DNA from: Stenotrophomonas sp. ESTM1D_MKCIP4_1
Lineage (GTDB): Bacteria > Pseudomonadota > Gammaproteobacteria > Xanthomonadales > Xanthomonadaceae
Assembly: GCF_003086895.1 (NCBI RefSeq)
Contig: NZ_CP026004.1
Span: 3,988,684 to 4,052,683 of the forward strand
DNA length: 64,000 nucleotides
Direction: 5' to 3'
Shown: piece after piece, positions 6,001-43,780 of the stretch
How the letters are laid out: each line of letters starts with the position of its first letter
Numbering within the stretch: the stretch's first letter is position 1
Translations under genes and position numbers: made by a program
The notes under the pieces: generated by a model
Seen by the model: only the letters and a program-made list of their open reading frames with translations
What the model was told of the DNA's origin: nothing
The model's database searches: none

Positions 6001-9000
6001 CTGAAGCTCACCGGCCCGGTGAATCCCGCTGGCGGTGTGTACTGGAAGCTGCCATCACGGCCCAGCTGCAGGCCATCCGGCGTGGTGCCCGATACGGTGA
6101 ACACCGCACCGACCGGCGCGTTGTCATTGCTGGCTACGCTGCCCGACAGCAGCTGCCCGGCCGGCGTGGAGAACACGTCGGCCACGGCAGTGGGCGAGAC
6201 TACCAGCAGGATCTGTGCGGAATCGCAGTTGCTGGGCAACGCGGTTTCGCACAGCTGGTAGGTCAGCGTCAGCGCGCCGGACGGCACGCCCGCGTCGACG
6301 TTCAGCACGCCATTGGCATCCAGGGTGAAGCCCGACGGCGCGCCCACCAGGCCCAGCAGCACGTCGGCCGATGCCGGCGGCTGGGTGCCATTGAGGCTGT
6401 CGTTGAGCAGCACCGACAGGGTGCTGCCGCCACCAGCGCCGATCGGCGTGGCGCGGAAGTCATCATCGGCGGCGGCCAAGGTGCCGGCGTTGACGTTCAC
6501 GGTGACCGTCGCGCCCGAGCACACGCTGGCATCCGGCGCAGGCAGACAGGCCTGGTAGGCGAACGTGACCACGCCCTGGGTTCCTGCCGGCGGCGTGTAG
6601 GTGAACGCACCACCGGCGGCCAGCACCAGGCCCGCAGGCGCGGTGCCGGTGACGCTGAAGGTGGCACCGGCCGGCACATTGTCGTTGCTGCCGACATTGC
6701 CGCTGACCGGCACGCCCACGGCCGTGCTGACGTTGTCGTTCACCGCCACCGGTGCCAGCAGCAGCTGCACCGCGCCGTCATCGCAGTTGCTCGGCAGCGC
6801 CGCCTCGCACAGGCGGTAGCCGAAGCTGACCGCACCCGCAGCGGCACCGCCAGGTACGGAGATGGTGCCGTTGGCATTGAGTACATAGCCGCCCGGCGCA
6901 CCCAGCAGGCTCAGGATCACCTCGGCCGGGGCCGGCGGGATCGCGCCGTTGATGGTGTCATTGGCCAGCACGCTGATGGTGGTGCCACCAGTGGCGGGAT
7001 TCAGCAGGCTGCTGCGGAAGTCATCATCGTTGGCGACCAGCGTGCCGGCGTTGACATTGAGGGTCACCGTGGCGGTGCTGCAGGCGCTGGTGTACGGCGC
7101 TGCCAGGCACGCCTGGTAGCTGAAGGTCGTGGTGCCGGTGTACTGCGCCGGTGGCGTGTAGGTGAAGCTGCCATCGCCGTTGAACACCAGCCCCGGCGGT
7201 GGGGTGCCGGTGACCACATAGGTCGTACCGGCCGCGACACGATCATTCACCCCGACATTGCCACCGACCGGGCGCCCGACCTGGGTGCTGAAGCTGTCGG
7301 CCACCGCCTGCGGCGCGATCACCACCGCGATGGTGGCCGTGGCGCAGTTGCTGGTTCCGGCCTGGCACAGCTGGTAGGTCAGGCTCAGCGGGCCCGCCGG
7401 CGATCCTGCAGGCACCTGCAGTTCGCCCGTCGGCGCCAGGGTGAAGCCGGCCGGCGGCGCATTGATCAGCGACAGGCTGGCCTGTGCGGGGTCGATCGCC
7501 ACGCCATTGAGGGTGTCGTTGGCCAGCACGCTGGCCGTGCTGCCGCCGGTGCCCGGCACGGGCGCCGCAGTGAAGTCATCATTGCCGGCCACGACCGCAG
7601 CCACGGCGACGTTCAAGGTCACCGTCGCGGCATCGCAGATGCCGCCATTGGGCGCCGGCAGGCAGACCTGGTAGCGGAAGCTGTCCGCACCGGCATACGT
7701 GCCCTGCGCGGTATAGCTGAAGCTGCCATCGGCATTGACGCTGACGGTGCCGTGCGCAGCACCGGCCAGCAGGCTGAACTGCGAACCCGCAGGCACGTTG
7801 TCATTGCCGGCCACGGTATTGGCCAGCGCCACGCCCGCCGTCGCGGCGAAGCTGTCATCTACCGCATCGGGGGCGATGACCAGCTGCACGTTGGCAGTGG
7901 CGCAGTTGCTGCCGCCCGGCAATTCGCAGATCTGGTAGGTGAACGCATAGGCGCCCGCTGCAGCGCCCGCTGCGATCTGCAGCTGCCCGGCGGCGTTGGT
8001 GGTGATGCTGGCCGGTGCACCGGTCAGTGCCAGGCTGACACCGGCGGGCGCCACGGCGGTGCCATTGAGCGTGTCATTGCCGAGCAGGCTGATCGCAGTG
8101 GTGGTACCCGGCTGCAGCGGCGTGGCGAACAGATCGTCGGCGGCGGCCAGCTGGTTGTCGGCCACGGTCACGCTCACTGTGGCGGTGTCGCAGACGCTGG
8201 CGTTGGGTGCCGGCAGGCACAGCTGGTAGGTGAAGGTATCGGGCCCGGTGTTGGCATTGGCCGGGGTGTAGGTGAAGGTGCCATCGGCACTGACCACGGC
8301 GGTGCCGCGGGTGCCCTGGGTGCCCAGGCTGAAGACCGCGCCACTGGGGAAGTTGTCATTGCCGGCCAGGGTGCCGGTCACGGGTCGGCCGCCGCCCGGG
8401 GTGCTCACTGCATCGTTCACGGCATCCGGGCTGACCAGCAGGTTGGCGGTTGCCGTGGCGCAGTTGCTCGGCGCGGCGTTGTCGCAGAACCGGTAGGTGA
8501 GCGACAGCGCACCGGCCGCAGCGCTGGCCGGCACGACGAGGGTGCCGTCGGGGTTGATCGAGAAACCGGCGGGGGCGCCGACCAGGCTGAGCGTCACGCT
8601 GGCTGGCGGCACCGGGTTGCCATCGTAGGTATCGTTGCCCAGCACGCTGGGCGTGGTGCCCCCCGCGCCCGGCGGCAACGGCGCGGTGAAGGTGTCATCG
8701 GTGGCGACCAGCACGTTGGCGTCAACCAGCACCGACGCCGTGGCGGTGGCGCAGACACTGCCATTGGGTGCCGGCAGGCACACCTGGTAGGGAATCGAGG
8801 CCGGCTGCGTGATGCCGCCGGTCGGCGCGTAGGTGAGCGTACCGGTGCTGCTGATGGTGGCACCCGCGACCGGCGTACCGGACGCACTGAACGTCGCGCC
8901 GGCCGGTGCGTTGTCGTTGGCGGCCAGGTTGCCGCTGATCGTGGCGGCACCGGCCAGCGCGTTGAAGCTGTCGTTCAGCGCGGTGGGCGCGATGATCAGG

Positions 9001-42434: not shown

Positions 42435-43253
42435 TTACTGGCGCAGTTCGCGGAAGGTGGCGGCGGGGCCGGCGATGCCGTGGCTGGCGCGCCAGGGGTT
42501 GATGTCCAGGCCGCCACGGCGGGTGTAGCGCGCTTCCACTTCCAGCCATTGCGGCTGGCAGCGCGCGGATACCTCGCTGAAAATGCGCTCCACGCACTGC
42601 TCGTGGAACTCGGCGTGCTCGCGGTAGCTGACCAGATAGCGCAGCAGGCCGGCGCGGTCGATCTTCGGGCCGCGATACCGAACGCTGACCGTGGCCCAGT
42701 CCGGCTGGCCGGTGACCGGGCAGTTGGATTTCAGCAGGGCCGAGACCAGGGTCTCTTCCACCAGCTGGCCGGCATCTGCCGAGAGGAAATCGGCCTGCGG
42801 CGGGCCATAGCAGTCGATTGCCACGTCCAGGCCATCAATGGATTCGCCCAGCGGTGCCTCGGCGAGCGGCGGCAGGCCGAACTGCACCTGCACCGGCGCG
42901 CCCGCGCACGCGGACAGGTCGGTCACCAGGCGCTCGCGCAGTGCTTCGGCCGTGTCGACACGGGTGCTGTTGAGGGAGTTCAGGTACAGCTTGAACGACT
43001 TCGATTCGATCAATCGCGGCGAGGTGCACGGTACCTGCACGGTGGCCACGGCCACCTGGGGCTTGCCGCGCGGGTCGAGCCAGCTCAGTTCGAAGGCGTG
43101 CCAGCGGTCGTGGCCGACGAACGGCAGCGCGGCGTCATCGAGGCCGATCTCGGCGCGGGCGCCGATACGGGGGATGGGAAACAGCAGGCCGGGATCGTAC
43201 TGCGACGGGTAACTGACCTCGCGACCGAGGCTGGAGTCCTGGGGGGTGTTCAT
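42435..43253 (-). CDS. queF: NADPH-dependent 7-cyano-7-deazaguanine reductase
   Basis: 272 residues, the long two-domain (YqcD) form. Reduces preQ0 to preQ1 in queuosine tRNA modification. The thioimide-forming Cys lies in [12 protein letters not shown]; the [13 protein letters not shown] motif (QueF signature with substrate-binding Glu) is present. The start MNTPQDSS fits family length; a longer in-frame reading runs into the structured repeat upstream. Stands alone, flanked by REP-rich spacers. Confidence 0.96.
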
Positions 43254-43346
43254 GGTGCTTATTGTATCGCGCGGAGGGCGGGCCTTCGGCCGGGTCGGCC
43301 AACGGCGGAGCCCCTCCGTGGTGGTCAAGAGCAGTATCTCGGGGTT

Positions 43347-43450
43347 GGCCGGGAGGGTGGCTTGGCTGGGGGACGCCGTGAATCCGTCCATGGAGGCTCG
43401 GTCGCCGCATCCATGCGGCTCACGCCCCCAGCCAACCCACCCTCCCGGCC
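43347..43450 (+). repeat. Structured 104-bp element, copy 1
   Basis: Arms of 26 bp (43347-43372 and 43425-43450) are complementary at 25 of 26 positions and enclose a 52-bp core beginning ACGCCGTGAATCCGTCCATG and containing the inner hairpin GCCGCATCCATGCGGC. Confidence 0.85.
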
Positions 43451-43534
43451 ACGGACAGTCTCCCGTGCCACCCCGGGAAAGATCAGGAAAATCAAAATCA
43501 AAAGCCGATCCTTCAGACGTTCATGACGCCTGCC

Positions 43535-43555
43535 GTGCCGACCAACGGTCGGCAC
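43535..43555. repeat. Degenerate SMAG-like palindrome
   Basis: GTGCCGACC-AAC-GGTCGGCAC followed by CGAC instead of the usual CTAC tip. Confidence 0.55.
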
Positions 43556-43602
43556 CGACCAAAGCAGAAGGCCGTTCCGACAGATCGCGGAAGTCTGTCG
43601 AA

Positions 43603-43704
43603 GGCGGGGTGGGTCCGGTTGAGGGGGTGTGAGCGGCATGGATGCCGCGACCAAGCCTCCAGGGACGGATTCACGGCGTCCCCCTCAACCGGACCCACCC
43701 CGCC
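43603..43704 (-). repeat. Structured 102-bp element, copy 2 (inverted)
   Basis: Perfectly complementary 25-bp arms (43603-43627 and 43680-43704), unrelated in sequence to the arms of copy 1, enclose a 52-bp core that on the minus strand matches the copy 1 core at 47 of 52 positions. The inner hairpin is GCGGCATCCATGCCGC here. Confidence 0.85.
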
Positions 43705-43780
43705 ATCCCACGGCAAGCCAGCTTTTGACGTTAACGTTGATCTGCAGCAGGTGCAGGGCTGCAAGCCCTGCCGGAAACCC

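Follow-up and report, generated by a model that had tools for sequence, protein, structure and literature searches.

A dispersed, mostly outward-paired repeat of Gammaproteobacteria with twin candidate RsmA/CsrA-binding RNA hairpins

The window that we analysed is a stretch of 64,000 nucleotides from the single-contig genome (4.476 Mb) of Stenotrophomonas sp. ESTM1D_MKCIP4_1. It contains two copies of a structured repeat: element 1 at 43347-43450 (arms and core of 26+52+26 nucleotides) and element 2, inverted, at 43603-43704 (25+52+25). A first-pass annotation had described this pair from the sequence, and its description of the locus held up. On recounting, 47 of the 52 core positions are identical between the copies, the arms form Watson-Crick pairs at 25 of 26 positions in element 1 and at 25 of 25 in element 2, and the compensated change in a core hairpin (GCCGC/GCGGC in one copy, GCGGC/GCCGC in the other) is real. 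A repeat search with the window copies gave inverted arms of 27 and 28 nucleotides at 96%. Mononucleotide shuffling of 16 pieces of the window, each of 4 kb, gave no arm pair at the same spacing that matched at more than 18 of 25 positions; of the 16 unshuffled pieces, the runner-up reached 19, against 25 pairs at this locus.

Both elements carry two hairpins with GGA in the loop, and every one of these loops is closed by a C-G pair. In element 1 they lie on the minus strand, with the loop of hairpin P3 (AUGGAU) at 43409-43414 and that of hairpin P2 (AUGGAC) at 43386-43391; the strand is assigned from the mismatch bias and from the strand of the Rfam matches to sister copies (see below). In element 2 the functional strand is the plus strand, with the P3 loop (AUGGAU) at 43638-43643 and the P2 loop (AGGGAC) at 43661-43666. 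Element 2 scores 110.6 bits with R1, the covariance model that we built from 81 copies in this genome, element 2 among them. Between the two functional strands, which have their 5' ends towards each other, lies the spacer (43451-43602, no strand assigned). A GACAG-type motif adjoins each element within the spacer, as it does in many other pairs. The spacer also holds a REP-like palindrome, GTGCCGACC..GGTCGGCAC (43535-43555, no strand), which we presume to be akin to the SMAG repeats (see also PMC2613905, as far as its text was available to us).

Outside the pair are two further modules, neither with a strand assigned. Beyond element 2, a CAACGT-type repeat is followed by the hairpin GCAGGGC-TGCAA-GCCCTGC (43705-43771, with the hairpin at 43753-43771), and beyond element 1 there is a module of the CCAACGGCGGAGCCCCTCCGTGG type (43299-43321). 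A transcript of the genes on the minus strand would carry element 1, which ends about 93 nucleotides ahead of the presumed start codon (43253-43251) of the next gene, taken to be queF; the ORF list gives a longer frame for this gene (42435-43391).

The first-pass annotation expected further copies of the core elsewhere, and this was borne out. A degenerate pattern for the core matched the genome 94 times (45 forward and 49 reverse) and the reversed control pattern never matched; a looser scan of 60 fetched stretches raised the count to 96 copies. The arms of 85 of these copies pair at 21 or more of 25 positions, and those of the remaining 11 at 9-20 of 25. By these counts, neither of the two refutation tests set by the first-pass annotation (a core confined to this place, or flanks elsewhere that fail to pair) went against it. 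That arms lack similarity to each other is correct for the two window copies and fails genome-wide, where, by eye, there are a few recurring arm classes plus unique ones.

Copies come mostly in pairs. There are 36 pairs of neighbours closer than 1.5 kb, and in the orientation used by the first-pass annotation 34 of them are plus/minus, two are minus/minus (from one tandem triple) and none is minus/plus. The plus/minus pairs account for 68 of the 96 copies and for 34 of the 60 loci. Of the other 28 copies, several are in fact paired too, but an indel or a loop insertion hid their partner from the scan, as happens beside 3269717, 1672894, and 3215705. Same-strand tandem arrays occur as well: three copies repeat every 341 bp in this genome (G000 C1:2436951-2437737), and six repeat about every 227 bp in another (L209, G601 C1:94419-95654).

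By pattern matching, an outer hairpin of the GCAGGGC..GCCCTGC type stands beside 46 of the 96 copies, CAACGT-like repeats beside 71, and a CCAACGG..GCCCC type beside 19. We noticed that outer flanks with CAACGT tandem hexamers and the GCAGGGC..GCCCTGC hairpin stand near gene stop codons. With neighbouring genes taken from GC3-heuristic calls instead of annotation, and 118 of 120 sides counted, the element cluster lies 60-110 bp away in 44 of 70 cases where the neighbour presents its 3' end and in 10 of 48 cases where it presents its start.

Read on the strand opposite to copy 1, the element forms a three-way junction: stem P1 (25 bp), P3, a single A, P2, and the return of P1. P3 has up to 10 bp and the loop AUGGAU, while P2 consists of 3 bp, a 5-nucleotide bulge, another 3 bp, and a loop of the form ANGGAY. 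We aligned 81 of the 83 eligible copies among the 96, leaving out two with arm indels. In this alignment, 96.4% of 3240 cells are paired and 36 of the 40 base pairs have two-sided changes, which none of 500 shuffles equalled; sliding the partner by one column reduced the pairing to 42%. A second alignment, of 37 matches from other genomes, gave 97.1% of 1467 cells paired and two-sided changes in 40 of 40 pairs (again 0 of 500 shuffles), even with P1 highly diverged in sequence. The idea that the arms are constrained in structure and not in sequence is thus confirmed, both within this genome and beyond it. Two P3 positions are non-standard in 43 and 42 of the 81 copies, and we read them as tandem G·A. 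The folds are very stable (z = -7 to -9). Folding by energy does not by itself recover the core: for element 1, the minimum-free-energy structure of the functional strand has no twin hairpins, and for element 2 it has P3 with a four-base loop and lacks P2, whose upper stem is only 3 bp.

Mismatches in the arms indicate which strand is selected. Selection on double-stranded DNA or on a cruciform should leave A·C and G·T mismatches equally frequent, whichever strand is read. In the 87 of 96 copies with at least 17 Watson-Crick arm pairs, the mismatches, read on the GGA strand, are G·U 50 times and A·C 8 times; by copy, the count is 36 versus 4 (p = 2e-7), and by distinct mismatch events it is 31 versus 8 (p = 3e-4). 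Across all pairs of 33 elements from 30 other genomes there are 31 G·U and 9 A·C (15 rows versus 1, with 17 ties), although the model-based selection of this set may lean slightly towards G·U. (These 33, also used for the loop counts below, are the first rows of the second alignment; the four left out are three opposite-strand matches and one distant match.) The bias favours RNA, or single-stranded DNA, of the GGA strand. Given the excess of G·U on the strand opposite to copy 1, selection probably acts on RNA of that strand, and the first-pass annotation probably gave copy 1 in the reverse of its functional orientation. Overall, there is strong evidence that this is a structured, strand-specific, and class-wide repeat.

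The two loops resemble known binding sites of a protein. Both are C-G closed loops of the ANGGAN type (C-ANGGAN-G). In the 81 copies from this genome, the loop CANGGANG is kept in 80 for P3 and in 78 for P2; the P3 loop is AUGGAU in 79, and most P2 loops are ANGGAY with a free second base. In the 33 elements from other genomes, CANGGANG is kept in 30 for P3 and in 32 for P2, with both N positions free. In the alignment, the two GGA sequences are 23 nucleotides apart, start to start. According to the accessible portion of PMC7652899, the SELEX consensus for CsrA is RUACARGGAUGU with the hexaloop ANGGAN, 44 of 55 ligands had six-nucleotide loops, and one CsrA dimer can bridge sites that are 10-63 nucleotides apart; the same source cautions that very stable stems may be unfavourable. 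The element thus has ANGGAN hexaloops at bridging distance. We see a good case from the loop sequences that these are CsrA-type sites, and each loop looks like a candidate docking site for the global regulator RsmA/CsrA.

The R1 model (whose E-values are rough, as its calibration was short) matches 28 of the 37 genomes of the genus, including this one, and 4 of 24 others in the order. Nine of the 37 have no R1 match, so the element is dispensable. In a sample of the class, R1 matches 73 of 369 genomes, or 61 of 314 high-quality genomes, and 64 of 271 genera. Ten candidates per genome were scored, and at E ≤ 0.01 a few of these positives could have arisen by chance; for seven the best E lies between 1e-4 and 5e-3, and none was dropped. 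In a sample of the phylum, 19 of 249 genomes match, and all 19 belong to the same class as our genome (the share of the 249 that lies outside the class was not given). An out-of-register version of the core pattern matches two named records, a Sedimenticola MAG and Xanthomonas pisi. Outward-facing neighbours on opposite strands are seen elsewhere too (L166, L193, L197, L198, L211, L212, L213, and the viral contig L222), as are same-strand neighbours (L209, L212, and L213).

CsrA (PF02599) has a match in 60 of the 61 high-quality genomes with R1 matches and in 220 of the 253 others (p = 0.006); over all class genomes, the counts are 68 of 73 and 245 of 296. Our genome has one CsrA. The R1-positive genomes in which CsrA is not among the matches listed, which is how absence is defined here and for Y1 below, are G255 (98% complete, in 270 contigs) and four genomes of 67-88% completeness; three of these five (G068, G255, and G401) supply elements with conserved loops to the second alignment.

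The closest Rfam family is TwoAYGGAY (RF01731; Weinberg 2010, PMC2864571), which is listed for human gut, Gammaproteobacteria, and Clostridiales in the part of that paper at hand. As in our repeat, a weakly conserved outer stem bears a pair of hairpins whose loops read AYGGAY, and one stem contains a tandem G·A (reported in the accessible text of PMC4333381), which about half of the copies of our repeat also have. A search of our genome with RF01731 at E ≤ 10, with 150 of 276 candidates scored, gave 12 matches, all of them on elements and on the strand that we inferred; the best scored 34.4 bits, below the cut-off of 43. One of 14 control genomes had a match at this threshold. A search of our genome with stricter filters found no match at E ≤ 0.001. 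RF01731 matched 13 of 15 other genomes that we chose and exceeded its cut-off only in G042 (three places) and G052 (five places), both from a different family within the order. In the class sample of 369 genomes, 23 match RF01731 at E ≤ 0.001 and 15 exceed the cut-off, versus 0 of 14 controls; of the 23, five are R1-positive and 18 are R1-negative. Conversely, R1 finds seven of eight RF01731 loci above the cut-off (L214-L218, L220, and L221; L219 was missed), at the same place and on the same strand, with E from 6e-14 to 0.03 in 23.6 kb. A cmscan of 20 R1-positive loci from other genomes gave no RF01731 match at E ≤ 0.01. From these comparisons we conclude that our repeat is a related, diverged group beside TwoAYGGAY and not a certified member of it.

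Certified TwoAYGGAY members elsewhere are also multi-copy and often form outward pairs (G042, G052, G218, G328, and G421); same-strand RF01731 neighbours occur in G150, and G052 has one inward-facing pair of neighbours, plus/minus with a gap of 498 bp (251415 to 251913). In G042, three RF01731-type elements (L160, about 613-1600) surround a gene that resembles, and that we take to be, the RNase P RNA gene. Two genomes of the genus without R1 matches do match RF01731 at E ≤ 10, G004 three times (best 4e-4) and G018 twice (best 1e-4); these matches perhaps represent a second, more divergent subfamily within the genus. Direct Rfam scans of both window copies returned weak matches, mostly to microRNA models and none to RF01731, which we rejected as generic to long hairpins. 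We rejected Ysr224 for the same reason (32.9 bits for the window copies and 38 for the 20 loci from other genomes, with a cut-off of 70).

Comparisons with relatives suggest that these elements come and go, as the first-pass annotation had supposed in likening them to mobile hairpins. Among 18 other genomes of the genus, the window locus has the pair in 7, both flanks with no R1 match between them in 6, and a rearrangement or a single flank in 5. The orthologous pairs differ in subtype and arms, which implies rapid turnover or conversion in place. We also compared 14 loci across five relatives and found at least 61 cases with both flanks, of which at least 8, at four loci, are element-free (three at L066, one at L089, two at L107, and two at L085). 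Most cases were called by script, on size; those for L085 in G005, G008, and G011 and for L098 in G011 were added by hand. The insert content was read for the 8 element-free cases and the window locus, and the 8 sites have no R1 match in their sequence. Two of them (L107 in G005 and L089 in G017) consist of a single simple hairpin; where L107 and L089 are filled, a unit of about 500-540 bp begins and ends with a hairpin of this sort. In L085 of G005 and G008, other palindromes occupy the element's place.

These element-free sites, along with the high copy number, the inverted pairs, and the REP palindromes in the spacers, are what would be expected of selfish hairpin DNA (REP/REPIN or MITE-like) that is moved in trans by a transposase such as Y1/RAYT, with the GGA loops either incidental or recognised by the enzyme. 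Y1 transposases (PF01797, which does not tell RAYT apart from other Y1) have five matches in our genome and are commoner in element-bearing genomes (52 of the 61 high-quality R1-positives versus 165 of 253 others, p = 0.002), but 9 of the 61 have no Y1 match, and the first-pass suggestion of a hairpin moved by a transposase lacks support. The association with CsrA is no stronger than that with Y1, and both may reflect lineage or genome size. Other observations fit selfish DNA poorly: only 3 of the 96 copies have P1 ends with the GTAG/CTAC foot and 8 with CGTC/GACG, a symmetric DNA hairpin does not explain the strand-biased G·U mismatches or the CANGGANG loops, and blastn of the pair found nothing among 72,556 records of plasmids and 50,697 of phages. 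(One outward pair lies on a contig classed as viral, L222, IMGVR_UViG_2924561020_000002, 7445-7874, the only viral-contig match of the exact pattern.) We therefore think that purely selfish DNA is unlikely, though it deserves serious consideration. A role as bidirectional terminators or as mRNA-stabilising 3' hairpins, strand-symmetric and without a protein-specific function, would suit the stable fold, the distance of about 60-110 bp from gene 3' ends, and the two empty sites that hold a simple hairpin with T/A runs. We consider it quite improbable, as P1 is not followed by a run of T in either window copy, the distance to gene 3' ends is also set by the separate outer modules, and a terminator has no need to keep two GGA hexaloops over 30 genomes while the stem drifts.

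The first-pass annotation leaned towards attC-like sites, that is, folded single strands used in recombination. The long folded arms under structural constraint, the same-strand tandem arrays in our genome and in G601, and a strand bias that fits single-stranded DNA too would all be compatible with this. But the copies are scattered over the chromosome as outward pairs, the spacers mostly hold REPs and not gene cassettes (two long spacers contain a gene-sized frame), and the loops match the RNA site of a protein. Because of the lack of cassettes and the CsrA-type loops, we set this reading aside as highly improbable; the mismatch bias towards one strand and the likeness of the loops to CsrA/RsmA sites suggest RNA instead.

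We propose, as the probable explanation though with real room for doubt, that these elements form a scattered family with mobile-like behaviour, in which each copy is an RNA module with twin binding sites for RsmA/CsrA and acts as a decoy in 3'UTRs or as a cis site. The selected product would be an RNA that folds into a stem P1 of about 25 bp, whose sequence is free to drift, bearing two side-by-side C-ANGGAN-G hairpins. The distance of 23 nucleotides between the GGAs would suit a single RsmA/CsrA dimer that bridges both candidate loops. Read-through or 3'UTR transcripts of adjacent genes would carry the modules and could bind RsmA. As the pairs face outward, transcription from either side would yield one GGA-strand module. 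The modules may titrate RsmA, forming a sponge spread over some 60 loci and about 96 copies, or they may instead mark their host mRNAs. The pair makes up, with its outer hairpin modules, a unit of about 500 bp that is either there or missing as a whole. Four points of this picture are what we infer: that the modules are transcribed, that RsmA binds them (for which the evidence is indirect), that they act as a sponge or in cis, and how they move.

If this is correct, then the free concentration of RsmA/CsrA would be set in part by a repeat family that is scattered over the genome, and the spread of the repeat would be a route for rewiring the post-transcriptional network. The orphan family TwoAYGGAY would gain a setting in the genome and a partner that can be tested, and the repeat might explain how RsmA is counteracted in Xanthomonadaceae. 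According to the available part of PMC7694677, Xanthomonas genomes have no homologues of the classic Rsm sRNAs. The full proposition is a mobile repeat of Gammaproteobacteria whose cargo is twin RsmA/CsrA-binding RNAs, in outward pairs at gene 3' ends, with about 190 candidate RsmA sites per genome, acting as a distributed sponge or rewiring regulons in hosts in which few dedicated Rsm sponges are known. We offer this tentatively, and we would sooner expect some part of it to fail.

Several known systems share features with the repeat. RsmZ, RsmY, and CsrB-type sequestering sRNAs also have ANGGAN hairpin loops at dimer-bridging distance, but they are encoded by one or a few dedicated genes, whereas our repeat has two candidate sites per copy at some 60 loci. 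In a related genus, RsmU is a precedent for an RsmA sponge derived from a 3'UTR, although we liken it by its description and not by its sequence: the portions of PMC7694677 available to us describe an sRNA in Xanthomonas that is processed from a 3'UTR and binds and sequesters RsmA. It is encoded at one locus that, by that account, occurs only in Xanthomonas, and four GGA motifs are predicted in it; RNA with changed GGA motifs still bound RsmA in vitro. SMAG/REP, BIME, and REPIN elements are, like our repeat, intergenic palindromes in inverted pairs at high copy number, and SMAG-like REPs lie within its spacers; unlike them, our repeat is a three-way junction of about 102 nucleotides with a strand-specific structural constraint and a class-wide core.

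Going by the text of it that we had, PMC4333381 has already put forward TwoAYGGAY as an RNA that CsrA would bind. In the accessible parts of PMC2864571 and PMC4333381, TwoAYGGAY is not described as a dispersed paired repeat, and the repeat family is unreported in the portions available to us of the literature on TwoAYGGAY and on CsrA together with repeats, Stenotrophomonas, or Xanthomonas (including PMC3733652, PMC2613905, and PMC2267715). As far as this literature shows, the dispersed and paired nature of the repeat, the pair rule, the evidence on strand, and the class-wide extent are new.

We also note that some copies have an extra palindromic insert in or near the P3 loop, which adds AGGA and AGGACA hairpin loops and leaves the GGA loops in place. 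These include the orthologue of the window locus in G010 (L136) and three copies in our genome (about 448727-448775, 652964-653010, and 1829074-1829120). Another type of insert, in the P2 loop, is found near 3215704 and 3266008.
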